A stretch of DNA of 17,175 bases from Coprinopsis marcescibilis (taxonomy: Eukaryota > Basidiomycota > Agaricomycetes > Agaricales > Psathyrellaceae): contig ML210548.1 of the NCBI GenBank assembly GCA_004369085.1, positions 1-17,175 on the forward strand, read 5' to 3'. This document shows, one piece after another, positions 1 to 16,949 of this stretch. The position numbers and the translations under genes are program-made. The notes beneath the pieces are model-generated. The model ran no database searches. It saw only the letters and a program-made list of their open reading frames with translations, and was not told the DNA's origin. Position 1 is the first letter of the stretch. Each line of letters starts with the position of its first letter.

Positions 1-2265
1 GCTGCGCATCATGTAATTAGCAGCTACATGACCCCTTTGGACGTTTGGCGACTATCCTTGCCAGTGTTTCGAATTTGTTTCGAATGTGAATTAATACTCT
101 CATCGAGCGGATGGTAGTGTTTTATGTAAAGCCTTCGGGTATTGCCACCTGTGCACGTCCAATTCAGAGACGCATATCACCAGTATACTGCCTTGCGCCA
201 GAGCTGAATGGCCTCCTACGGCCTAACACGCGGTATATCTTCGAAACCAAATGCAACCTTGCTTGGTCGACCGTGTCGTTCCGATGACATCATTGGGGCG
301 GCCCGGCCGGAGATAGCTGTTCATTGCGACGAGCATCGCAGCTCGCGTTACATCCGGGTGCCCAACCGGCCAGCCTCAACATATCACAGTCGCTGGGCAG
401 GACGAATATTGAGGTCCAGGCCTTCAGTCTCGCTCATAGCCTCATTGAGAAGACCGTCGTGTGGAAGTCGATTGTCAGACGGTTACCTGCAGATACGACG
501 AGGTACAGCCTATATCTGCTTTCCTGAACACCTCAGCTGACATAGCTGCTGCCAGGGTATCACTGATATGGAGGGCAGCAATGAGCCGCGCACTTAGCAC
601 GATACTAGCCAGTGAATAGGATGATACTGTATACGAACTGTGAGTTTCGTTGACCCTCTTCATACGCCTGCCCTAATGGTTTCTCAGCTCCTCCTCCTCC
701 CATGCTCGTCGTTCTTCCAATTCCACTACTTGGCTTACGACTATCCACTGCCTGCAACTGTTATCGCACAGCTTCGTAGCCAGCCCGTACCTTTATCGCG
801 ACGCGACAGCCCCACCCACTCGCCTGCCACGCTTTATAGAGCCTCGGAGCCAGGTTCATACTGCATTGGGGATCTCAAAGATCTCGAGTGCTGCATATAC
901 CTGGCCAGCTCGCTACGTTTGGACCAGCCGACACCCGGGCAGCATCAAGGAATAGTGATGACCAGACGCTCTGGCGCGGAGTTGTATGCGTTCCACCGGG
1001 CGATATCGCGGAACAGAGCCCCGGAATTTGACAGTCAGTCATTGGCTTACAAGGTGCGTTGCAAACACTCTCTCTGGCTCGTTGTAACATATTCTGACAC
1101 TGTGAATCGTAGACATGGGGAATTCGAATACCACTCACCACAAACGTCGCGGCCATGCTACCCTCGTTTCCCGCTCCTCCATCGTCGTGCTGGCGACCGA
1201 AATTAGCAGTCATCCTCTCCGACCCGTTCTCTACCGCCGATCTTCGCAGAACGAAGCCCAAAAACTCGTTCCCTGCTCTCACTCAACGTCCAAATCAACA
1301 CCATACACTTTGCCCAATGCGGATACTCGAGAATGAGGTGCGGGGCCCCGCCATGCGAGTGGACGAATGTGATCATGAGAGGGCGTAGTGGTAGGGTCTA
1401 GAAAGTGCGTTGGTGGGGAAAGACGATGCTGCCGGCGTCCCGGATTCGTCGATGTGACCCGCTTGCCCACCGCTCTATTTGCCTCCATCCACGTCCATTT
1501 TTAGACCCTTCCGCGGCCCCTCATCTCCTTTGATTGGCGTCCTATTCGTGGCTGCGGGAGAACGAGAAACAACGGTGTCACTTTCATCCGTTGGTGAATG
1601 GCAGGTCGGTTCGGGCAAATGTGGCAGATCCAGTTCGACACCAGACGCGTCATCGTCACGGCCTGCGACTGTATCTCTTATCATCGGCATCGACAGTGCA
1701 CCGATTCCTTGTGCCGTCCCCGAGTGTACCCTCGACCCCTCATGCTTCGTCATCTTGAGAAGCAGTGAATTCACGAGACCCATCCCCTGATGGTTGTCCT
1801 GCACCTAGACCCTCGTCAACATCTCTAACCGCGATTAATCTATGGAGCGCACATCGAGCAAAGCTGGCGGTCACTGCATACACTGCGATCCGCGGTGGGA
1901 TGTGACAGGCTGTCAGGTGTGAACGGCATCGCTGAGGAGCCGAGGGAGCGGGAGATGCAGGATGTGCGAACCGAGGCAGCGGAGAAGCGAGGGGAGAAAC
2001 GGAAGCTGGTGAGCCCTGTCTTTCGTGTCGAGTTTTTGGTAACTTGACTGATTCATGGACTACTTTCGTCTAGAATGTTGCTATGCGCTCAAACCCGCTT
2101 GTGGGAAGGGGAGCGTGGCGGGCGGGATGAGTGGGCAACGGTGCGTGGTACGTTCACTCAATGATTTCGTGTTGTTGACAATATACTGATTCAGGGATTT
2201 CGTCCAACTAGACCGCAGGCTGAGGGGAGAGGATGGACTGAAGTACACACACGCACATTATCATC
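1..2265. other. GC-rich flank without a recognised gene
   Basis: I recognise no protein family here on either strand. Several open frames of 60-188 codons overlap one another on both strands, as expected by chance in GC-rich DNA, and none shows a motif. Plausible introns exist on the plus strand (about 1053-1112, 2008-2072 and 2149-2195, each with a GTRNGT donor and a pyrimidine-AG acceptor), so a decayed or unfamiliar spliced gene is possible. The flank ends at the 9-bp target site of the neighbouring transposon. Confidence 0.5.
1826..2129 (+). pseudogene. possible 3' exons of an unidentified gene
   Basis: An open frame of about 60 codons runs to 2007 and ends in a charged stretch rich in Glu, Arg and Lys (reads EKRGEKRKL at its end). 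It is followed by a good intron (GTGAGC donor at 2008, TTGACTGATTC-like branch, CTAG acceptor at 2072). Splicing continues about 18 codons to a TGA at about 2129. No start codon and no homologous family were recognised. This may be the end of a real gene or a chance run; the evidence is only the frame and the splice signals. Confidence 0.22.
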
Positions 2266-2274
2266 ACCATGTAT
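2266..2274. repeat. left target-site duplication ACCATGTAT
   Basis: Nine bases immediately outside the left TIR are repeated exactly after the right TIR (7983-7991). If the terminal base is taken as TACGG instead of ACGG, the duplication shortens to 7 bp (CCATGTA), so 9 bp is the longest consistent reading. Confidence 0.85.
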
Positions 2275-2513
2275 ACGGTTGACGAGAACGTCGTGGATCA
2301 AATTTCCCGCGCGAGCACATTTCGGCGCTCGCCGAACCAATTCCCACACACCACAGCCCGCCTCAAGTCATCGCCCGCACTTACTACAGCTTCTATACTC
2401 GCCGTCGTACCTCAGGACCTCGAGATTTAATGCTAGAACATACTGTAGATAGGTCCAGTATATATACATGGTATCCCCCACCCTTAGAGATACGTTTCAG
2501 GGGTACATTTCGC
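2275..2513 (+). repeat. left 239-bp terminal inverted repeat
   Basis: Starts ACGGTTGACGAG and matches the reverse complement of 7744-7982. I count one mismatch in the outer ~215 bp (C/T near 2388) and four in the innermost ~24 bp, about 98% identity, with no gaps. It contains a palindrome (2321-2336, TTCGGCG-CT-CGCCGAA) and a TATATATAC tract, either of which could be a transposase or transcription signal. Confidence 0.92.
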
Positions 2514-2557
2514 CTACTGTAACCTGCAGCCTGCGGCAAAGAGTACATACGAAGAAA

Positions 2558-4241
2558 TTACCCAAGGATCACTTTAATAGCATCAGACATAGTAGAAAAG
2601 ACCTCCCAAGCGTTCTCAAGAGTGGCCGAAGGTCTACCGATGGAGATAAACGCAGCCTCTGCCATCACCTTGAAGTCATCGCTGAACCAACGGAAAAAGG
2701 TGTCTCGAGGTCCAACCTCTTCCTCAATCAAGCGCCGAGTGTGGCGCTGAGCATCCTCGGGAACCCTGATCAGACAGTTGAGAGCATTTGGGTCGTATTT
2801 CTCTGGGAGGTTAATGGCATCTGCAGGCACATGACCTGAAGGCATATGCTTGTAAGCCTGTGTACGGATGCGGTGATGGTTCCAATAGGTTCGGAAGGAG
2901 TCCAGACTATCCTGAATGAGTGGGATGAAGATCCAATAGAAGAGGTCGCTGTGAATAGAGTTGAGCTTTGAGAACCGATGCTGCTAGGTGTGACCAATGA
3001 ATATTAATGAATACGCAACATACCTGTGGTAAGTGCACTGAGGCTGGAAAATATGACGAGCTTTCCCTTGAAGAATGATTTCCTTTAGTGACCGCCCAAC
3101 TTTAACCCCCAGCCATCGCCACAATGATTCAATGACAGTATTGTGAACGCTCATAATAGCCATCGCTGTCGCAAACACCGCAGGGTCAACATCGGGTGCA
3201 AAGATCCGTCTAAATATGCTCGAGTTGATAAGCCAAGAACAGTTTATCAAAGATTCAGTGCATACCTCAAGGCATCTTGAATACTTTGCTGCCACCCACG
3301 CTCCGGACCCTTGTCAGTTGTCAGTTGGAGAGGGATCCCTACCCAAGAGTGAGTATATAGAGTAGCTAGTAGCACAGATAGACAATGTACCTCCACACTC
3401 AGCAACGAGGTCAAGGTATAGGTGAGCCAAAGGTGCTGCACTTCGAGAGTCAGGGATTGCGACAAGCTTGATGATGTACCCAGACCACTTGTCCCTGTAT
3501 GCGTAGATCGGAATGCTAATGTCCCCCATCTGTAATGCCTGTGAATTAAGCTTCTCGTGCCCATCTGCTGATACCTCTTGATAGGGTCCAAGCGAAAGGA
3601 GAGGAAGGCGAGGTATCAACGTGCGATTTGCCCCAGGACGGCGCAAATCAAAACCCTCTGGCGCAACCTCTTTCATGAGTAGGCGGAGCGTATCACTACC
3701 ACAGTTCCACACATAAATGATGAGACTATGTTTTGTAAAGCCACTTGAAGATGCTAAGGGCTTACCGAGCAATCATAATGTGTTCATCTTGAAGCATTGA
3801 CTTTAACGCATGTGGGCCTGTGCCGTGAGTAATATCCTTTTGTATGAAACCAGCCGCAGTGTTTCTTATAGTGTCCTTTGGAAGGCGGGGCTTTCGAACG
3901 GTGGGTATCTCGAGACGATCCTCAAGCACACACAGGGTAGTCTCGCTAAGCATTAACAGACAATGTGAGTGAGATCTGCCCATTGTCTATAACATGAAGC
4001 AAATAATGCATACCCAATGCTGAGACCGAACTCATCCTTGAGAAACTTGATTTTTGACTTGCGGGTATACTTCAAACGAACACACTTGAGAAGTCCTTCT
4101 CGAAGCTGTTCATCTGGAGGGTCTGGAAATAGTGATTCAGGATGTTAAGGTTGAGTACAGCTGCACTCAGCCTTGGATTAACAATGAACAGAACTCACAT
4201 TCCTTCGACCCCCATTGGTTTTTGCCAGATGGATTAGGCAT
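2558..4241 (-). CDS. integrase-core (rve-type DDE) transposase, 7 exons, 428 aa
   Basis: Model on the minus strand, exons 4241-4199, 4122-4014, 3945-3766, 3695-3391, 3338-3266, 3209-3024 and 2948-2558. All introns are GT-AG of 52-76 bp and the sum is exactly 429 codons. The start MPNPSGKNQWG and the segment LEIPTVRKPR match the N-terminal region of fungal 'integrase core' proteins. The catalytic triad appears complete: D155 (SADGHEKL), D221 (LTTDKGPE) and E264 (HNTVIESLWRWLG), giving DD(66)(43)E-like spacing. The C-terminal part includes a YWNHHR segment and an SIGRPSATLENAWEVF tail typical of this family. Its gene lies inside TIRs and is divergent from the alpha-kinase gene. I infer cut-and-paste integration activity on the flanking TIRs. 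The exon 6/7 acceptor at 2949 was chosen because it keeps the conserved frame; the nearer AG at 2984 does not. Confidence 0.85.
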
Positions 4242-4582
4242 ACTAAGGGATGATAGCGAGAGTAGAGGATAAATAAAATGAATGTAGGACAGAGGCAAGC
4301 TCTGAGATGCATATTCGTCGAAAGTGGACTCTGCTTTTAACCTTGAATGAGACGCCCTGTGTTGTAACTTGGTCATCTGTATTTTGAGCAATTTGTCTTG
4401 GATTTCGGGTGAATATGGGCCTCACTGGCCAATTAAAAAGCGCCAAGAGAGTGCTTGCAACTGTACAGTGCTGCGCAGATGGCACCATGCTCAACGCGGT
4501 GCATTGGCAATAAAAACGAGGTATGTTGGCGCTACCATGGGATTCTCGGTCATGAACCAACTGCAGTGCAAGACCCTTCTCA

Positions 4583-4595
4583 TTCGGGACGCTCA
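4583..4595 (+). repeat. 13-bp direct repeat, copy 1
   Basis: TTCGGGACGCTCA, repeated exactly at 4730-4742 in the divergent promoter. Candidate regulatory site. Confidence 0.5.
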
Positions 4596-4729
4596 TTGGA
4601 CAAAGTGCCCTTGAGCAAAGCGAGGCGCACATCAGAGGTGCATGTGTACGGATATCCAATGGTCTAGTTTGCTTCCCCAAAAGCTGGGATAACATGCAGT
4701 TCTTTCTCCCGAAAAAAACGAGGCTGACT

Positions 4730-4742
4730 TTCGGGACGCTCA
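4730..4742 (+). repeat. 13-bp direct repeat, copy 2
   Basis: Exact copy of 4583-4595, 147 bp downstream and about 100 bp before the kinase TATA box. Confidence 0.5.
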
Positions 4743-4840
4743 GGAGGGAGAGTAAAGCTGGAGAAAAGAATGCCCATGGGGACTGGGGCGGGGCTTGAGA
4801 GTCAAATTTGGGGATTCAATCCTTTGTGTGGACTTGGGAC

Positions 4841-4848
4841 TATATAAA
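4841..4848 (+). promoter_or_regulatory. TATA box of the alpha-kinase gene
   Basis: TATATAAA lies 74 bp upstream of the start codon at 4922. That predicts a transcription start near 4870 and a 5' leader of about 50 bases. Confidence 0.6.
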
Positions 4849-4921
4849 CAGTACCAAAATTCCCATATTCAACACAGCTCAACCGACATTGTTCAATTAT
4901 TTCTTCAACTTTGTGCTATTA

Positions 4922-7573
4922 ATGCCTAACACCACTACTCTAAACTGCCCTGACTGTCGCAGGTCGTTCCCTTGTGCTCCGACTACTCATTCCAAATGCG
5001 AGAGGTGTGTGGAGCTTGCTAAGCGCCCATATCAGTCTAGCGAGTATGAAGAAGTGATGGTGCGTCATTTATTTTGTAATTATTTTCACTGATGCATTAT
5101 ACCTCTCTGCGCTTAGAAATGGCCCCAATGCATCGAATGTGGACAGTCCTGGAGGAATGCAACCCTCAACAATGCCAATGCTTGTGCCAACTGCGGACCT
5201 GGGGATACCCAAGTGACTGCGGGTCGTGGGGAGTGTGTCATAGGTATGTCTATGCTCTGTACTGATGCTGGGAACTATTGGTTACCTTTTAACTCTAGCT
5301 GTCGAGCGATATCGGGGCTCTCAGGCTGTTGCTCTAGAAGATACCACTGCCCGTCGCTCCGAATCTTTGTTCCAGTCACTGAAGCCCTCAACGGCAGCTG
5401 CAGTAACTTCGGCGCTAACAACAGAAGTTCTGCAGGCACGCGAAAACATTATGCGTGGAGTTGCAGCTGTTAATAGCGGTAAACGTACAGATGCTGTTGT
5501 AGTGGATATTAAGGTGAGGGTCATAGGCTGTGGCGTTGCATTGTAACTCATGTTTATGTAGTACCGGTTGAGCGGAAAACCTAGGGTTACTGCCGACATT
5601 TATGGGATGGTTCGGGCAGCCTTCAACTCAGAGACAACACTTTGGGGTATGTTCCCTTTAACTCAGTTAAAATAAAGTGATCTGACACCATCTGAAGATG
5701 TTCAGGACCGTGCACTGAAGCAGTTCAACGTTGTCTGGACTAAAAATGGTCAGATTCCAATTGTTGTGTGAGTTTTGATGTTATACGTCAGCATGTACGG
5801 ATTTGTTAAAGTGGATGCTTGTCTTCAGAGGGGAGACTACCTTGCGGCAGCAAGATAACAGGCTCATTGATCAAGACATGCTTGGTTCCACACTTCATGA
5901 GTATCTTGCTCAATTGATTGATATGGGGTTTTCCACCGCCCCCACAAGTGTGAGTAGGTTTGGAAAGAAAGGATTGGTTCACGGAAAGCGTGTGGTTCCA
6001 TTTGAGCTTTTCATTATGGAACATATGGTGAGTCCAGCTACAATGATTCTCGATGCAATTTATTCTGATTTTAGGTACAGTTTGCGGAGCGCATCGAGAA
6101 GCTTGCTTTGACTAATTCAGTTCCTACTTTGGAGGCAGGAAAATTGAATAGCAAACGCAATAGGACAGGCTCAATGGCATCTTCCATGATGGCAGCACCA
6201 GCGAAGGTTGCTCGAGTTGGTACCGGAGGTGAGTGTATTGCATATTCCTAATTTTCCGCTGCCAAACATTCGATAGGGTTTGAGTTTCGCTCCTCCTTTG
6301 CGTTACCACCACGAAGCACCTCCCATGAGACGTCTTCTATTCATCTGAGTACAGAGATAACACTAAAGCGGATTGAGTGCATGCATCTTACTGCCGATGG
6401 ATGTCCAATCTTTGTACCAAAGGAACAGTTGAAGGCCTTTATCGGGGAAGCTCCAATTGCTCATGGCTCCATGAAGGTTGTCTTTGAAGTACGTTGATTA
6501 CATTCAAGCCTCAATACGTCCCTACAGCTACTTATATATAATAAGCTTACCCTTTCAGACTCCAAGACCACCACCAAGTATGTTGTCAAACGATTCTATA
6601 AGTTGGAAGACTCGGGTAGCGACAATGACGATGACACCTCTACAAAGTTCGACTTTTCCAATCCCCCATTCACCGTAGACGAGCACACCCCAAAAATTCG
6701 CGCTGAGTGCGTTCGCTTGGCTCAGGGCGCACAGTTCTTGAAGGACTTCTACAAAGCTTGCCAACAGAAGGGTGTTAGTGTCTATGACTGTACGTACTGC
6801 GCCTACGGACAGTGGATCAGAAAATAGCTAACACCCACTGTAGATCTTCGTTTTGCACACTCCTCACTTCTGCAGGAATGCGGAGAGGTGTCGCAAGCCT
6901 CAGGAATGCGCATCGCGGGAGGTAAAGCTAGCAATGCGCTTGACCTGGATACAGAGCACGCACTGCCAGGCTTTACGTGGTTGATGGAAGAGAGGCATGC
7001 AAGCGGGCGCATTGAACGCTTTAGCGGCACTCTGCAACACTCTCCGTTGCACTCTGATATCACTCATCTGACGGTTTACGCATTTGCGCACTTTGTTTAT
7101 GAGTTCACGGGCCGTCAGATAGTCCTTGCTGACTTACAAGGTAAGTCAAACCCACTGAATTCCCTTAGCGATCTCGGCGCTAATTCACCGTATAAATAAC
7201 TTATAAATAACAGGAACTCCTACTTTACTCCGTCATAGTGGTGAACGCATTGAAGGCGTCCTTATTTTTGATCCTATGACTCACACACTCAACCAGTCAG
7301 TACATATCATTTAACTGCGCATTTTTCCGTGGGCCTGAATTGTATTCCAGGGGTTCTGGCATCGGTGACTGTGGTGTACAAGGCATCAACTCGTTTTTGG
7401 AACAACATCAGTGTGGAAGGATATGCGAGCAACTTGGCCTCAGTCAGCCCGGTGAGGCTGACCTTCTGACCGGTGCTAACTCCAGGTCCTCTAGTCCCAC
7501 AGACTCTGATAAAGATCCCACTGAAGGCAATTTGGATAAGACTCCTGAGCCAGTTGGGCAAAATGCTGCTTAA
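4922..7573 (+). CDS. zinc-ribbon plus alpha-type (MHCK/eEF2K-like) protein kinase, 12 exons, 681 aa
   Basis: Exons 4922-5059, 5117-5243, 5299-5513, 5562-5646, 5698-5767, 5829-6027, 6075-6228, 6277-6488, 6546-6789, 6844-7140, 7214-7295 and 7351-7573 total exactly 682 codons. The N-terminus has two CxxC pairs twice (C9/C12 with C26/C29; C51/C54 with C69/C72), like zinc ribbons. Residues about 100-300 match nothing I know. The C-terminal third is an alpha-kinase: GSMKVVFE glycine-containing loop, K415 in VVKRF, zinc-site candidate H564, D578 in ADLQG, D600 in FDPMTHT, GSGIGDCG loop (609-616) and the H627-x-C629-x3-C633 zinc knot. All key residues of this Ser/Thr kinase family seem present. A Ser/Thr/Pro/Asp-rich tail follows. 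The acceptor at 6545, not 6558, is needed to keep the kinase frame. It lies inside the TIR element, divergent from the transposase; the substrate is unknown. Confidence 0.85.
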
Positions 7574-7743
7574 TATTACGGTGGTACATCTCTGTAGTAT
7601 GTATTTAGCCCTGGGTTGATTCCTATGGATATCCAGCTTACATTCGAGAAATTTCCTACACACATGTCTTAGAAGTGCATATAAATCTACGCACCCTACT
7701 GCGCACTAGGACTGCGGGAAAACTGCCGGTATGCGAGATAAAT
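7574..7743. other. 3' region between kinase stop and right TIR
   Basis: About 170 bp with no gene; presumably the 3' UTR and terminator of the kinase transcript. No consensus polyadenylation signal stands out. Confidence 0.4.
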
Positions 7744-7982
7744 GCGAGATGTACCCTTGACACATATCTCTAAGGGTGGGGGATACCATGTATATATACT
7801 GGACCTATCTACAGTATGTTCTAGCATTAAATCTCGAGGTCCTGAGGTACGACGGCGAGTATAGAAGCTATAGTAAGTGCGGGCGATGACTTGAGGCGGG
7901 CTGTGGTGTGTGGGAATTGGTTCGGCGAGCGCCGAAATGTGCTCGCGCGGGAAATTTGATCCACGACGTTCTCGTCAACCGT
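7744..7982 (-). repeat. right 239-bp terminal inverted repeat
   Basis: Reverse-complement partner of 2275-2513, ending CTCGTCAACCGT. The mirror palindrome lies at 7921-7936. It begins about 170 bp downstream of the alpha-kinase stop codon. Confidence 0.92.
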
Positions 7983-7991
7983 ACCATGTAT
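7983..7991. repeat. right target-site duplication ACCATGTAT
   Basis: Exact copy of 2266-2274, directly after the right TIR end (CAACCGT). It marks the insertion site of the 5.7-kb element; joining the flanks through one copy recreates the empty site. Confidence 0.85.
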
Positions 7992-8451: not shown

Positions 8452-10121
8452 TCAAAGCAACTCAGCAGTTTCCAACTTGTTGGTGAATACCCATGGGATT
8501 TCTTCCAATGCCAATGATAGTGCTGAATGTCCATCAGATCTTGTAGCATTAACATCAACCTTCTCTTGCTTCAGCAACACCTCAACCACATCTTTGTGTC
8601 CCCAATAGGCTGCCTGCATGAGTGCTAACCCCTCTTGGCATTGTGAGGAATTGACATCAATGTCATCTTGCTCCAGCAAGAGTTTGACAATGTGTATATG
8701 CCTCTGTCTGGATGCCACTGCAAGGGCTGTCCCATACTTCCAATGTGATGCATTCACATCAATGCTATCAACCCCAAGTAGCATTTGAGCTGCATCTAGC
8801 TGGCCACCCCAGGCTGCAAGAATGGGAGCTGAATAACCCTCTCCATCACCAGTGTCAGGCTGCCTTGCATTGACATTAATGCCCCGGACACAAAGAAGGG
8901 ACTTGATGACTTCTTTGTGGCCACAGACTGCTGCCCACATGAGTGCCGTTGTGGAACATGCATTGACATGATCTGCATCAACAACTCCCAGAAGCATGTC
9001 TACAACCTGAACATGGCCAGCCCATGATGCTGCAATTAGGGGTGACCATCCCTCCCTGTCAAAGCATTGGGTATCAACACCTTCAAACCCAATGAGCAGC
9101 TCTATCGTTTTGAGATGTCCACAGCCAGCAGCAAATGCTAGTGCTGTGCAACCATCAGGTGATTTGGAATTGGCATTGAGGGGGGAAGGAGGTGGGTAGT
9201 TGGTTGGAGAGGAATCCAAACCCAACCACTGTGCAAGAAGACTGTGGAAGTTGCAGGCAGCAGCAAGCTGGATGGAGTTAAGATGGTCAAATCTGCCACT
9301 TAAAAGATACTTCCAGGGAAATTGCTGGCACTCCAGGATCAATTCATTAACAAAGTCTGGGAGTAATGCTGAGTGTGCATGGATTGCCCAGTTGCAATGG
9401 GCATATGCAAGAAAGAGATGGGTAGTGAAAACATCATCATTGTAATCATGGATAGTGCCATTGTAGTTTGCAAATGCACAATCTTGAAGGAAAGCAACAC
9501 ATGTGCCAGCCAACATTGCCTCTGCATCAACCCCCACCTTTGGAAGGTAGCCAACCAGAAAGTCATGTGCAGTATAGTCTAAAGTAGAGCATAAGCCATC
9601 ATCCATGCAATTAAATGGAAATGGCACATATGAACAAGGCAGACAAGTTTTGTCTCTGGCTCAAAAGTGATCAACCCACAGCATGCAGACAGTAATGTGT
9701 CAGGATCAACCAGAAGGGTGGAGTCATACTTGAATGGTTCCATTTCAATAGCAAGTGCATGCAGAAGATCATCCATCTTGAGTGACTCATGTGCATATGC
9801 AAGCAAGATCAGTGCACCAAGGGCCAACTTGGGTGCTGGACTACCATTGATATACTCCATGGTGGCCTCATACATGGCATTAACACCCACAGGAAGCACC
9901 TGCAGTGCTGTGTCTGGGCTCTTGATATTGATGCAGCTACCAAGCATGTTGAGCTGTAGAGAGACCACTAAGAACCTACAAACCAATGGGTGAGCAGATG
10001 ATACACTGCAGTTGTACCTGAAGTTGCTCACATCCCCAACGATCTTTTGAGCACAGTCTTGAAAGCCTTCTCCTTCCAATCCCCCTTCTCCAGCAGGTTT
10101 CACAGCCTTGGCATGCACCAA
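8452..10121 (-). pseudogene. 3' part of a NACHT-ankyrin (NLR-like) gene, frame broken
   Basis: Read on the minus strand, 10121-9579 encodes a segment (SLQLNMLG, VGVNAMYEATME, LLHALAIE, LLSACCGLITFEPETKL) that resembles the winged-helix region following the NACHT NTPase in basidiomycete NLR-like proteins. A likely 42-bp intron (10017-9976) joins FR to FLVVSLQ. The downstream frame, 9627-8452, begins near DYTAHDFLVGYLP and carries about six ankyrin repeats plus a partial one (for example ALMWAAVCGHKEVIKSLL). The two parts are in different frames; a 49-bp intron-like insert (GTGCCA...TTTAG, about 9626-9578) lies at the junction but does not restore the frame exactly. No P-loop or NACHT core is present: gypsy sequence lies upstream instead. 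Intact relatives are thought to be intracellular recognition proteins with variable repeats. I regard this copy as partial and probably non-functional. Confidence 0.65.
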
Positions 10122-10227: not shown

Positions 10228-11261
10228 TTATTTCTTGTGGTTGATAATTACTTCCACTTTGTACTCTTCTTGTCTATCAATAAGATCAGGTGGTGGTGTC
10301 ATGTGTGAAGGGCTGTGCATGTTGGTTTCCATGTATGGAGAGAGCTGTATGGTATGGAAGACATCATGGATCTTCCATTGTTCCGGTAAAGCAAGGCAAT
10401 AAGAGACTGGTTCTATGACTTCTGTTATCTTGAAAGGTCCTTCCTGTTTTGGTCTTATCTTGTTAGAGAGGTATTGCTGATTGAGGTTCTTGGCTTCTAG
10501 CCACACTTTGTTGCCTAGTTTTAAGGGAGTGACATCATTTTGTGACCTGTTGATCATCTGATTACAGGCTAGTTTGTGTGCGGTGATTGCTTCTTTTCAC
10601 AATAAGGTGAGGTCCATCATTCTTTCTTCTACCAATGGAATGTTTGACTGTTCAAAGGCTTCTGGGATGCCTTGTGGTTGGAGTCCCATGATTAATTCAA
10701 ATGGTGCCTTCTGGTTATCTGCCTGTTGTTGGTTGTTGTAAGTGAATTTGAGCATGGGGAGGTGATCTTTCAAGGTTTCAGGGTGGTTGACACAGTAATA
10801 CCCAAGTATGTTTGGACCTCTTGAAGTCCTCATTCGGAATTCCCATCGGTTTGAGGGTGATAGACAGTGGAGAGTCAGGAATTGATTACAAGTCTTTTCA
10901 GTACTTCTCAATGGGATTTTGCAGCAAAGTTGGGTTCTCAGTCTGAAATGATTCATTCAAGGATACTGAAATGTCAAAAGGTTGTGTTGATAATCATCTT
11001 TCCTGTGGTTTCTGCACAAACCTCTTTGTTGCAAGGAGTGAAAGTCACCCCCTTTGTAAGTCCTTGATCCACCTGGATCAAGATGGAGTCATAGCCAGAC
11101 ATGAGATCCATTGTGACAAAGGCAAAAGGTTGGTGTGACCTGGTTGACTTGTTTGGAATGAGGGTCGGTTTTAATGGTCAACAGTTAATTTTGAACTGTT
11201 GACATATTGTGCATCCTTTAACATAGTCTCGTACATCTCCTCTGAGGATGATTCTATTTGA
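10228..11261 (-). pseudogene. Ty3/gypsy integrase remnant (downstream half of split element)
   Basis: Reading the minus strand from 11261 down: DVRDYVKGCTICQQFKI (the CxxC of the integrase zinc-binding domain), MDLMSGYDSIL (first catalytic Asp), a degraded ISD segment (second Asp, followed by TGA), TVYHPQTDGNSE (catalytic Glu, followed by TGA) and TYNNQQQADNQKAPFELIMG. Then comes 10557-10228, an integrase C-terminal domain (LKLGNKVWLEAKNL, GPFKITEVI) leading into the start of a chromodomain-like segment (EEYKVEVIINHKK). Several frames are needed, so the gene is dead. It continues on the other side of the MULE insertion at 15778-16590. Confidence 0.82.
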
Positions 11262-11859: not shown

Positions 11860-14800
11860 ATGACCCCTTCAAAAACTACTCTACACCTGTGCCGAATCAA
11901 CTCTACTCTAACGAGTTCTTTAATCACATCACATTCTCTCTTGCCGCGAAGATGCCCTACCCAACCATTGCGCCGGACCGTTCGCTCACAATGTGGACCT
12001 TTGACCCTGATACCCCCACCAACATGGCTGCGATGGAAGTGGATGAAGGCAAGGCCATACCATCGAGTCGTGACCTTCATCCGATCGTCTCTCAGATGGA
12101 GCGCGCATATAACGAGGGTTCTCGCTCAGTTGTTATCACCCTTACCACGGGTGGTCGCACCAAGAACCTGGTTTATCATTTCATGAAGGTACGCACTCTT
12201 GGCTCTGCACTGCTGGTAAATCTTGGGCTTATTTTAGGAATGGGACAGATCCGACTCTGCGTTAACGTTAACAACAACCATGGCCCAATTACGCAGGCAA
12301 AGGATATCTTTACTCGACTGTCCAGCCTTCTCTCTCCTTTGCTGAGGTTGAAACTTGGTCAGTCTTGTATTTGCTCGCAGATACAAGGCTTCATGGTTGG
12401 CACGTTCCCTCTCTACAAGCTTGGCACGCTTCTCGGAGAGGAGTGGATCGAGGAGGATGTTCTCAATGCTTTATGCGAGCTTTGCTACTTCCGAACGCAC
12501 CCAAATGTCATTAATGGGTCTGGCAAATCCATGGCTCGATCTCTTGTTGTTCCGACGCTGCTGGCAAGCAACGTCTGCTACCTTCTAGAGGCGCCGTCTG
12601 CTCATGACTTCAAAAAGCGCTCAGCACTGTCAACTGCAAACATCCGACTCCTGCAACGCTATGTTTGATCTTGCCCTCCTACTGTTATTCACATGGTATC
12701 TTGCGACGACGGCCACTTCTCTGCACAGACATACCATGCGCATAGTGGGCGCTTAGAGCATCGAGACTCTCTCAGCCGCCCTCCTTCCCCTCATCTTCTC
12801 CCAACCTTCCATGGGATATTGAAGGACACTGGACTTCCACTTCCGGAGACTATATCAACTGTTCCGGTCCCCATGCAGCGTCAAGCCTATGGGAGCTGCG
12901 GAATCGCTGCCTTAAACTTTGTGGAGACGCAGCTGGACCCAGGAAAGATTCAGTGGACAGATGCAGCATCAACGTATCTACGCAATGTTGCTTTGCACAG
13001 TCTAGTTGTGTTTCATCTTGTTGCTGAACTCAAGAATACGGTGAGTACAGAATTGGCATCTGACTTTGCATATGGCTAACGTTATCGAATGCAGGAATCG
13101 TCAACCTGGTTTATACCACAGATGCAATCGGATAATGACAAGTCAATTTTGTCCTTGGACCACACGGTAGTACCGGATGCTTATTATGAAGACTTTAACC
13201 TTTATTCGCCAATGGTAAGACATATACAGCCTTGTACAGAAACATTTTGCTGATTTCTCGATGATTTAGATTTATCATCCAATTCATGACTTCTTAGAAG
13301 CTCTTGACAAGGAGAGCTTTCAGGAGCTGGTAAGCATCTAGTATCCCTAACAGTGTTGGTTTATCTCTAATTCTCAACTTGTTATCAACGACATTAGATG
13401 CTTGATGGTACTGAGAGCATTAGTTTATCTGTGTCATGCTTTTCTCGTGCAAAGCTTGACCAACCAGTGCCTATGATGTCCAACAAGCGCCCAAAGATCA
13501 AGCAAGAGCGCATCACCCCACCCCCTAGCACATCAATGGCAAAGCTTGACCAACCGGTGCCTATGACGTCCAGCAAGTGCCCGAAGATCAAGCAGGAGCG
13601 CATCACCCCACCTGCCTCAGACCCAATCCCCAAAGTCAAAACGTGCAGTATCGTCGATTTGACAGCATCCAGTCCAGTCACCACTCCAGTCAAATCTGAA
13701 CCTCCACACATCATCAACCTTACAGCCCAGGATCAAGCTGTTCGCAAGCGCTCCTGGTCAATCATCTCCATTTCCGACTCGTCTTCCTCTGACCCCAAGG
13801 AGCTTGCGGTTGCCTTATCAAGAACGAAGCAAGCAAAGAAAAGGTGGGGCTCAGAGGCTATCAGCACCAACATTGCTGTTGGATCAGTCTTTCGGAGTCC
13901 GGATGAGGCAAAGAAAGCAATCTTTTCTGCACAGGAGGCGTTGGGATTTGTCTGGCGTATTGCGCAGTCAAAGCGGGACTCGGGAGGAGTGCAGCGCAAG
14001 ATGACCTTTCGATGCCGCAGCTACCAAGTCCATAACCCAACACACTCAAAGTTTATCGACCCGTCAGATCATCGAAAAGGCAAATCAGTTCGAACAGGCT
14101 GCTTTGCGCAGGTCAACCTCAACCGAATTGGCGCATCAGGACTCTGGAATATTACTCTCGTCGACTTCGATCACAACCATGGTTGTGAACTGGCTCCAGG
14201 AGCAAAACCTCCACAGCAGCCAACTCAGAAGCAGAAGGACGTGGTTGCAGAATATGTCTCATCTGCGGGGACAACATTCAATCGAAGCCAGATCTCAGCA
14301 ATTGTCAAGACACAATTCCCGGACCAACCTCTCGAGCCCAGACAGTTGTTGAACATCATGAATTCGGTCAAGAGGGAGGCCCGAGAAGAGACCGCACGAC
14401 TGGGAGGTGATGTTCAAAGCATCCTGGCACGACTGCAGGAGCTCAAGGCAGAGGACCCTAATTGGCAGTTTGATATCCGGCTGGACAGCAACCAACGCCT
14501 CATTTCGATTTGGTGGCAGTCTCCAGCACAGGCTAGCCTCACCCGGTGCTTCCACGATATTCTGCTAACCGATGACACCTACAACCGCAACCAGTATGGA
14601 TACCCCCTTAATATCGGCGTCGGCATCGATAACTTTGGACGTTCGCGAGTTCTTTGGTTCTGCATCCACGAGACCGAGGATATCCCCTCATATTCATGGA
14701 TCTTTCAACGTCACCTCCAGAGTGCTGGCTCACCCCCAGAAATCCTTATCTCCAACCAGCATGAATCAATTATACGCAGCGCAGAGATCACCATGCCACT

Positions 14801-15777
14801 CACACACCATCTCTACTGTCTGCACCATCTCAACGGGAATATTCCAACCAACCTTCGCCCCATACTTGGACCACAGTGGAAGGAGTTCACCACTCGCTTT
14901 TGGGCTGTCTATCGGGCTATCTCTCCCAACCAGTTTGAAGAGCTGTGGGAAGCGTTACTGGTCAGTTTCCCCCGCACATGGCCATACCTTGCTGAGCTCT
15001 ACACATGTCGCCAGCGATGGGCATGGGCTTGGATTGGAGTACTGTTTACTGCCGGTGTTCGCACAAGCGGCCGAGTTGAGGTTGAAAACCGCATAACCAA
15101 GGCTATTACCAGCCCCAAGTCAAGCCTGTATCAAGCTTTTGTCGCTCTCAACGAGAGAAGCACTCAGCAGTCTGTCCGCGAAGTGACAGAGTTCCGACAG
15201 GTCAGTAACAACTTTCCATTGCAGTTTTGACTCGTTTATAACTATTCAGCAACAGTCGTCTCGGCGCCAACATGACACCCCAATCGAGTCAATCTTTCGA
15301 GGTCCACTTACGTTGGTTCGCAACTTTGCTGGTCCGTTCGCAGTTCAAGAAGTCTACCAGCAGATGTCGCTCAGCGTCTACTATCGCACAGAGCTGGTTC
15401 AGCTACCACCACATCTGAGATCATGGGTACGTTCTTTTTTTTTTTTTTAATGAATATTCTCGTATCAAAGACTCACCCCATAACGTCTGATTTATTAGAA
15501 TGACACAGTCGAGTTTTCAACAGTTGCTACATCATTCTCTTGGTCGAATGGCGAGGAAACAGTGGGTGTCATCAAGTATTGGCCTCATTTTGTCGTCTAA
15601 CAAAGCCCACAGCGAATGATCAACACATTTCAGAACGACACCACTCATCTATCGATGGAATGGCTCCTTCGTCTCATGCGCAATCATGGGCTCCACCCAC
15701 ACCACATATATAGAGTCTCGCATCTGGACTCTGGAATGGTTCATTACGTTGCAATCCTACCAGAGCAGTGCTATATG
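11860..15777 (+). pseudogene. Ulp1-like protease / FAR1 zinc finger / MULE transposase fusion, decayed
   Basis: The frame reads through 11889-12668, 12669-13040, 13095-13214, 13270-13329, 13398-15200, 15250-15426, 15499-15561 and 15613-15777, joined by GT-AG introns of about 50-72 bp in phase 0. The N-terminal part resembles a C48 (Ulp1-like) cysteine protease: EEWIEEDVLNALCEL, His 12714-12716, Asp 12765-12767, a Gln shortly before Cys 12897-12899 (YGSCGIAALNF). A Ser/Thr linker with SUMO-type motifs follows, then a FAR1-like Cys/His finger (FRCRSY ... DFDHNHGCE) and a MULE domain (DDTYNRNQYGYPL, HHLYCLHHLNGNI, RVEVEN). Damage: ATG 11860 is out of frame with the domain, a probable 1-nt deletion near 12250, TGA at 12666-12668, Asn (14754-14756) at the second catalytic Asp, and truncation before the expected SWIM finger. 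It was a nuclear self-mobilising protein; this copy is not functional. Confidence 0.75.
13449..13628 (+). repeat. 90-bp in-frame tandem duplication (2 copies)
   Basis: Copy 1 starts at 13449 and copy 2 at 13539, with period 90 bp (30 codons). Each encodes AKLDQPVPM...PKIKQERITPP. The copies differ by a few substitutions, so the duplication is not brand new. It doubles a psi-K-x-E motif. Confidence 0.85.
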
Positions 15778-16590
15778 CTCAAGTTTGCCAGGGTGTCCTG
15801 CAAGGATCAAATCATGATGGCCACATGTTATCTGTCATTGAACTTGTAATTGAACTGGGTGAGGTATGTGTACCATCTGGCTTGTCTTCAGTTCAATTTT
15901 TGTGTTTCCCAAAAGTAGGATAGGTTTTTATGATCCGGTAGTACTTCGATTGGATGTTGGGCTCCCATTAAATAGTGTTGCCATTTGGTGAAGGCTCAGA
16001 TAAGAGCCAAGAGTTCTCGGTCATAAATTTCATAGTTTCATTTGGTTGGTGAGGGTTTTTGAAATGAATGATACTGGATGTCATGCTCCATTGGTGTGTT
16101 AAGCTGGATGAGAACAGCTCCTGTTGTGTATTTCAACACATTGCTTTTGACTTGGAAAGGTCTTTCCAAGTTGGGCATGATCAAAACTGGCTGTTCTGTA
16201 AATCAATGTTTCAGTGTGTCAAATGCCATTTGTCATTGGGGTGTCCACTTGAATGAAACTCCGTTTTGAAGAAGTTCATTCATTGATTTCATGAGTTCAA
16301 AATGAACCTTCGATAGAAGTTTCCAAATCCTAAGAAAGACCTTTCTTGCTTCACAGTTTTCAGCACTGGCCAATCTTGAATTCCAGCAACCTTTTTGGGA
16401 ACCATGGAGATTTGTCCTTCTTTGATGATCATGCCAAGATATTTGATGTGTTCTTGGCAAAACTGACATTTTTCTGGTTTCAAATAAAGGTTGTTCTCCT
16501 TGAGGACCTGGTGGGTCTTCCATGTGTCTTCAATCATCTTTTTCTTGGTTTTGGTAAAGATGATGTGAGTTGAGTGAGGGGGATCTTGAT
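15778..16590 (-). pseudogene. Ty3/gypsy reverse transcriptase-RNase H remnant (upstream half of split element)
   Basis: On the minus strand from 16590 down: [22 protein letters not shown] and [14 protein letters not shown] (3' part of the reverse transcriptase), [40 protein letters not shown] and RQARWYTYLTQFNYKF (RNase H region), then HHDLILAGHPGKLE (integrase zinc-binding start), where the MULE begins. The YxDD active site would lie upstream of 16590 and is missing. At least four in-frame TGA codons sit where the family has Arg or a similar residue (15888-15890, 15996-15998, 16038-16040 and probably one more near 16176). The linker between RNase H and integrase seems shortened. Non-functional. 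Confidence 0.82.
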
Positions 16591-16630
16591 TTTTCATGCA
16601 TAGTTCTGATGAGTACATTACACTCACCCA
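16591..16630. other. junction between gypsy remnant and minisatellite
   Basis: About 40 bp of unassigned sequence where the reverse transcriptase homology stops. Confidence 0.35.
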
Positions 16631-16949
16631 CCACTCTCCGTAGAGTCTTCAGAGACTTTGTGAAGACTCTTCGAGGACTATGTGAAGACTTTACAGAGAC
16701 TTTGTGAAGAGTCTTCGAGGATTGTACGAAGACTCTTCGGAGACTTTGTGAAGAGTCTCCGGAGAGTCTTCGAAGAGTCTCTGGAGAGTCTTCAAAGAGT
16801 CTCCGAAGAGTCTTCACAAGGTCTTTGAAGAGTCTCCGAAGACACTGCAGAGAGTCTTTGAAGACTCTTCATAGAGTCTCTGAAGAGTCTGTGAAGAGTC
16901 TCTATACAATCCTCAAAGAGTCTTCACAAAGTCTCTGAAGACTCTCCAA
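16631..16949 (+). repeat. 11-bp minisatellite, about 29 units
   Basis: The stretch parses without any insertion or deletion into consecutive 11-mers close to AGAGTCTYYGA (for example AGAGTCTTCGA, AGAGTCTCTGG, AGACTTTGTGA). Units differ by substitutions but stay in register. The unit is close to its own inverse (GAAGACTC/GAGTCTTC), so the array can fold into many hairpins. The minus strand reads through part of it as an 11-residue protein repeat, which is a by-product of an 11-bp period. Confidence 0.9.

Follow-up and report, generated by a model that had tools for sequence, protein, structure and literature searches.

Architecture of the element

The window analysed here is the entire contig C384 (17,175 bp) of the 36.3-Mb Coprinopsis marcescibilis assembly. 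Positions 2274-7983 of it comprise a complete transposon with terminal inverted repeats (TIRs), a target site duplication (TSD) and two intact, divergent genes, which encode an IS3EU-type DDE transposase and an alpha-kinase. The element is laid out as follows.

2267..2273: left TSD, CCATGTA (9-bp reading ACCATGTAT at 2266-2274; single copy in empty sites)
2274..2513, plus strand: left TIR, starting with TACGGTTGACG
2558..4241, minus strand: IS3EU-type DDE transposase, 438 aa, 7 exons (spliced models; PF24764; integrase fold)
Transposase exons, minus strand (spliced model): 4199-4241, 4014-4122, 3766-3945, 3391-3725, 3266-3338, 3024-3209, 2558-2948
4242..4921: divergent intergenic region common to both genes, with TATATAAA at 4841
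4922..7573, plus strand: alpha-kinase, 681 aa, 12 exons (spliced model, PF02816, fold comparison)
Kinase exons 1-6, plus strand (spliced model): 4922-5059, 5117-5243, 5299-5513, 5562-5646, 5698-5767, 5829-6027
Kinase exons 7-12, plus strand (spliced model): 6075-6228, 6277-6488, 6546-6789, 6844-7140, 7214-7295, 7351-7573
7744..7983, minus strand: right TIR, finishing with CGTCAACCGTA
7984..7990: right TSD, CCATGTA (9-bp reading 7983-7991)

The TIR arms at 2275-2513 and 7744-7982 are identical at 234 of 239 bases (~98%), and a repeat finder adds one base on each side (2274 and 7983), which gives TIRs of 240 nt. They are bordered by a 9-bp direct repeat, ACCATGTAT, which a first-pass annotation of the contig had taken as a perfect 9-bp target duplication. 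When the six complete elements described below are aligned, the ends of this copy fall at TACGG..CCGTA (2274..7983) and the duplication is better read as the 7 bp CCATGTA; it appears to be 9 bp because the A and T of the target coincide with the A that ends and the T that begins the element. The 9-bp repeat is therefore true of this copy and not of the family, in which 6-7 bp are duplicated. The insertion itself is demonstrated by paralogous empty sites: the left and right flanks both match contig C299 at positions that converge on one target, as they also do in C334, and these uninterrupted sites hold a single target copy that is intact (ACCATGTAT) in C299 and, by alignment, diverged in C334. 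Further copies of both flanks occur at other places in the genome (C299, C334, C153 and others). With the TIRs, the duplication and two empty sites, the original description of a complete TIR transposon stands, as does that of two divergent multi-exon genes in whole codons (681 and 438, with no frame break).

The transposase gene runs from 4241 to 2558 on the minus strand in seven exons, its 438 codons being free of stops and frame breaks; a model with a 25-nt intron (447 aa) was dropped in favour of this one, which has a 52-nt intron. The integrase core model PF24764 (rva_4) matches the protein (E 1.6e-10, computed on the earlier 447-aa model) and the fold is of the integrase/MuA/TnsB/IstA type, in agreement with the DDE integrase core first proposed for it. 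Its profile, searched against PDB sequences, yielded chance-level matches only. The public model of this protein (P0019, 428 aa) differs slightly in length, as does that of the kinase (P0001, 644 aa).

The kinase gene begins with an ATG at 4922 on the plus strand and reaches its stop at 7571-7573 after 12 exons and 681 codons without a frame break. The protein has an N-terminal Cys-rich part, a ubiquitin-like fold and a C-terminal alpha-kinase domain (PF02816 Alpha_kinase, E 1.5e-25, 90.8 bits against a cut-off of 21.3). Residues K378, H527, D541, Q543, D563, H590, C592 and C596 of P0001, which we take to be the catalytic/metal- and zinc-site residues, are invariant or at least 90% conserved among 18 homologues. 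It differs from MHCK-A, eEF2K and TRPM7/ChaK by its Cys-rich N-terminus and ubiquitin-like fold, and by its location in a transposon. Between the two genes, TATATAAA begins 81 bp upstream of the kinase ATG, and an open frame on the minus strand (4243-4815), the one frame tested, has no Pfam match.

Related elements in the same genome

Genome searches with both proteins and with PF02816, which give lower bounds, found at least 14 related transposase loci and at least 18 alpha-kinase loci. In these counts C314 and C111 (100% identical over 941 bp) are treated as halves of one insertion and a separate PF24764 branch (C237, C263 and C155, of which C263 is also a weak match in the transposase search) is excluded; the transposase P0028 (21,666-bp contig), known from the protein search, was missed by the DNA searches. 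Eleven of the 14 transposase loci adjoin a kinase or kinase remnant, in divergent orientation in all 11 cases: C384, C211, C349 (two places), C26, C6, C33, C314/C111, C51, C87 and C62. Of the kinase at C6 only about the first 214 residues are kept, and only remnants survive at C33, C62, C314/C111 and the second place on C349. If 14 and 18 loci were distributed randomly over 36.3 Mb, chance would give about 0.08 pairs lying within 6 kb.

Six of these loci (C384, C211, C349, C26, C51 and C87) are complete elements with a divergent transposase and kinase. The layout is identical in C51 and C87, the transposases of which differ from that of C384 at 73% and 75% of positions, and this depth of divergence counts for more than the number of pairs, copies of the same element being non-independent. 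Both genes are open in C384; in C26 neither contains a stop, but the automatic model of each has one frame break. The deletion derivatives C314/C111 and C33 are 99.7% identical, have different flanks and have lost most of both genes; the occurrence of internally deleted copies at different sites suggests that both genes are dispensable in cis. At C51:91329-97051 and C87:41558-46946 the copies belong to a second IS3EU-like lineage, which is deeply diverged and has an alpha-kinase and 6-bp TSDs.

Assignment to IS3EU and known relatives

TAYGG..CCRTA termini are found in all six complete elements (the last base of C87 being taken from the printed flanks), and the TIRs measured exceed 30 bp (C384, 240 bp, ~98% identical; C51, 179 bp, 97%; C87, 107 bp, 93%). 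The duplications are of 7 bp in C384 (CCATGTA), C211 (CCCACGG) and C349 (GACAGAG), imperfect in C26 (CTCTGTC/CTCTGTT), and of 6 bp in C51 (CATTGG) and C87 (CAAAGG, from the printed flanks with the end moved one base); C314/C111 has a 6-bp CTCGTG, provided that the two are halves of a single insertion.

These features resemble those of IS3EU/GingerRoot elements (Kojima 2023, PMC10045372), which share with C384 the TA..TA termini and the lack of an HHCC motif before the catalytic core. In the 438-aa transposase, the only candidates among residues 1-154 are C28, C56, H91, H96, H106 and C119, which do not follow the HHCC order. IS3EU/GingerRoot elements usually have a 6-bp TSD and are related to IS3/IS481 (PMC10045372); among the 120 homologues of our transposase listed from a search that found 131, 20 match the IS481 family model and eight that of IS3, all weakly. 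Unlike C384, they are described there without an alpha-kinase, the word 'alpha' being absent from that text.

The closest likeness is to the TET-bearing IS3EU families described from Pucciniales and, in one case, from Tuber indicum (Kojima 2025, PMC12730594), which have TIRs longer than 30 bp, TAYGG..CCRTA ends and an opposed gene pair. In all TET-bearing IS3EU families a TET/JBP gene is reported to lie between oppositely oriented transposase and alpha-kinase genes, and those of rusts combine TAYGG..CCRTA ends with 6-bp TSDs, as against 7 bp in C384. A third gene of the TET/JBP type was sought in the genome and in the intergenic frame and none was found beside the C384 element; a single Tet_JBP match turned up in the genome (C302:18263-18682), away from all of the counted IS3EU loci. 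The transposase/alpha-kinase pairing is thus already in print (PMC12730594), and the first-pass annotation was mistaken in holding that no family with an alpha-kinase partner had been described; the claim to novelty fails. Other fungal transposons with additional genes are the 'Intons' of a 2012 meeting report (PMC3520738), from an IS3EU ancestor and with several conserved proteins, and the IS3EU-derived Styx of Zymoseptoria (PMC10853768); the available parts of these texts name no alpha-kinase. No other description of the pairing was found in the literature covered, mostly titles and the beginnings of abstracts, with subscription journals and Repbase outside its scope. What is new here is the TET-less mushroom form, the test of co-inheritance and the Cys-rich/ubiquitin-like/alpha-kinase architecture.

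Co-inheritance and selection

Across the six complete elements, the distances between transposases and those between kinases are strongly correlated (r 0.96, exact one-sided p 9/720), which host phylogeny cannot cause because all six pairs sit in one genome. The correlation is r 0.89 when four foreign pairs are added (ten in total) and r 0.72 with two further pairs from Favolaschia (p 5e-5 in each case, 20,000 permutations). Mantel tests were performed both including and excluding Favolaschia, where the pairing is ambiguous (kinases differ at 4% of positions, transposases at 46%); eight pairs without it, before C51 and C87 were added, gave r 0.79 (p 0.0005). Both genes are under purifying selection: where dS was finite (13 of 16 comparisons), the ratio of nonsynonymous to synonymous divergence (dN/dS) was 0.10-0.21 in the kinase and 0.07-0.08 in the transposase. 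Decay makes two spliced kinase models unreliable, that of C279 and, over residues 280-480 or so, that of C211.

The shared layout of six complete elements and their correlated distances bear out the earlier proposal that the kinase is a stable partner and not a chance capture. Repeated co-occurrence at different target sites, the test that had been set for it beforehand, is found within this genome. Relatives of the transposase between matching TIRs carry the kinase, where their always lacking it had been named as grounds for abandoning the proposal, and with 18 alpha-kinase loci the kinase is not the single-copy host gene that had been considered.

Possible pairs in other species

A broad first kinase search returned two proteins only, both from C. 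marcescibilis, and a kinase-domain search returned 18, of which 15 are from other species (contig size given for 14). Five species have a kinase on a contig equal in size to that of one of their own listed transposases: Mycena galericulata, M. vulgaris, Plicaturopsis crispa, Collybiopsis luxurians and Favolaschia claudopus (twice). The other nine foreign kinases, including those of Ganoderma and Tulasnella, have no match among the listed transposases, both searches being limited by shared words. Ganoderma leucocontextum, the source of two kinases, is reported to be significantly richer in IS3EU sequences than the species it was compared with (PMC8955403). The predicted Hohenbuehelia grisea protein P0008 combines a DDE_3 domain and an alpha-kinase, and may be a gene-model fusion.

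Other features of the window

A piece of an ankyrin-repeat gene (8452-9660, minus strand) adjoins the right flank. Further along, a 610-aa open frame (13398-15230, plus strand) with Mutator-like element (MULE) transposase and FAR1 domains belongs to a second, unrelated DNA transposon, and contains a 74-nt direct duplication at 13449/13539. Gene fragments of long terminal repeat retrotransposons lie on the minus strand at 10228-10596 and 16289-16648, with matches to a Tf2-1-like SH3 and, just below the cut-off, a reverse transcriptase; a tandem array with an 11/22-nt unit, which is also self-complementary, occupies 16639-16946.

Weighing the interpretation

Taken together, the element is very probably a complete, apparently intact IS3EU cut-and-paste transposon with the alpha-kinase as its stable partner. 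Several observations weigh against this. Three of the 14 transposase loci have no kinase (C238, which starts at a contig edge; C50, where the kinase side is a run of N; and C34, a fragment whose flanks fell outside the reading), and no transposase was found alongside seven of the 18 kinase loci (C279, where the flanks were read; C337 and C132, at contig edges; and C9, C12, C54 and C11, whose flanks fell outside the reading). Two of the complete elements are decayed: C349 has one stop and one frame break in the kinase and three stops in the transposase, and C211 has four stops and one frame break in the kinase and two stops in the transposase. Abroad, for six of the 15 foreign kinases a conspecific listed transposase has the same contig size, the pairing being presumed from that size, and the six foreign pairs by themselves are weakly correlated (r 0.20, p 0.25); an earlier set of ten pairs, with four from C. 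marcescibilis and without C51 and C87, reached only r 0.52 (p 0.002). The dS values (1.45-2.88) are near saturation and are infinite in three of 16 comparisons, all between C384 and C26. The 7-bp TSD of three copies (C384, C211 and C349) departs from the usual 6 bp of IS3EU, an assignment that was made from published descriptions of that superfamily. Finally, mobility, and any effect of the kinase on it, are predictions from sequence.

In the mechanism we propose, the DDE transposase, with its retroviral-integrase fold, would bind the TIRs and excise the element, then insert it by staggered cuts that would leave 6-7 bp duplications. The alpha-kinase is a long-standing second gene, transcribed divergently from the transposase; the repeated pairing and co-divergence show that it is not a recent capture. 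It would most likely act in trans as an accessory factor, phosphorylating the transposase or host proteins, and this phosphorylation might permit transposition or blunt host control. The deletion derivatives (C314/C111 and C33) would likewise be mobilised in trans.

A narrower question within this explanation, so that the probabilities of the readings do not sum to one, is whether the stable kinase is useful only through a benefit to the host or protection from host defence (silencing, degradation), and not in transposition itself. Kojima (PMC12730594) proposes that TET/JBP genes of fungal transposons, including IS3EU elements with alpha-kinases, help them to escape methylation silencing, and the ubiquitin-like fold of the kinase is compatible with a defence-related role. 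The support is indirect and any substrate of the kinase is putative; we regard such a restricted role as a real but lesser possibility.

Transposons do capture host genes, and the kinase might be passive cargo from a host alpha-kinase recently mobilised by the transposase, as its weaker constraint (dN/dS) relative to the transposase could suggest. This is very improbable given the single divergent layout of six complete elements, including the two with transposases 73-75% different, the congruent divergence of the two proteins, the same-size contigs in five other species and the matching arrangement reported for TET-bearing IS3EU families (PMC12730594); it was rejected on the repeated layout and co-divergence.

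MULEs usually produce duplications of about 9 bp, as the direct repeat bordering the C384 copy might imply, but only PF24764 and no MULE model was found in its transposase, other copies have 6-7 bp duplications and the termini fit IS3EU, so a Mutator-like element, rejected on transposase domain, TSDs and termini, has next to no likelihood.

Implications

To our knowledge, protein kinases are rare among genes of eukaryotic DNA transposons, and the fact that transposase lineages so deeply diverged have all retained this one suggests a part for phosphorylation in the transposon life cycle. We put forward tentatively, as not far short of an even chance, that the kinase is an ancient, functionally required IS3EU protein, licensing transposition or disarming host control, and also that the alpha-kinase expansions of rusts and mushrooms are mainly transposon cargo. 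The alpha-kinase family is highly expanded in two rust species, with 79 and 39 genes (PMC4469406, Table 3), against an average of five genes in seven Agaricomycetes and none in the three Microbotryomycetes compared (PMC4469406). Such rust counts may for the most part reflect the number of IS3EU copies, with consequences for gene-family analyses, and the intact C384 copy, in a non-pathogenic mushroom, makes a role for phosphorylation testable.

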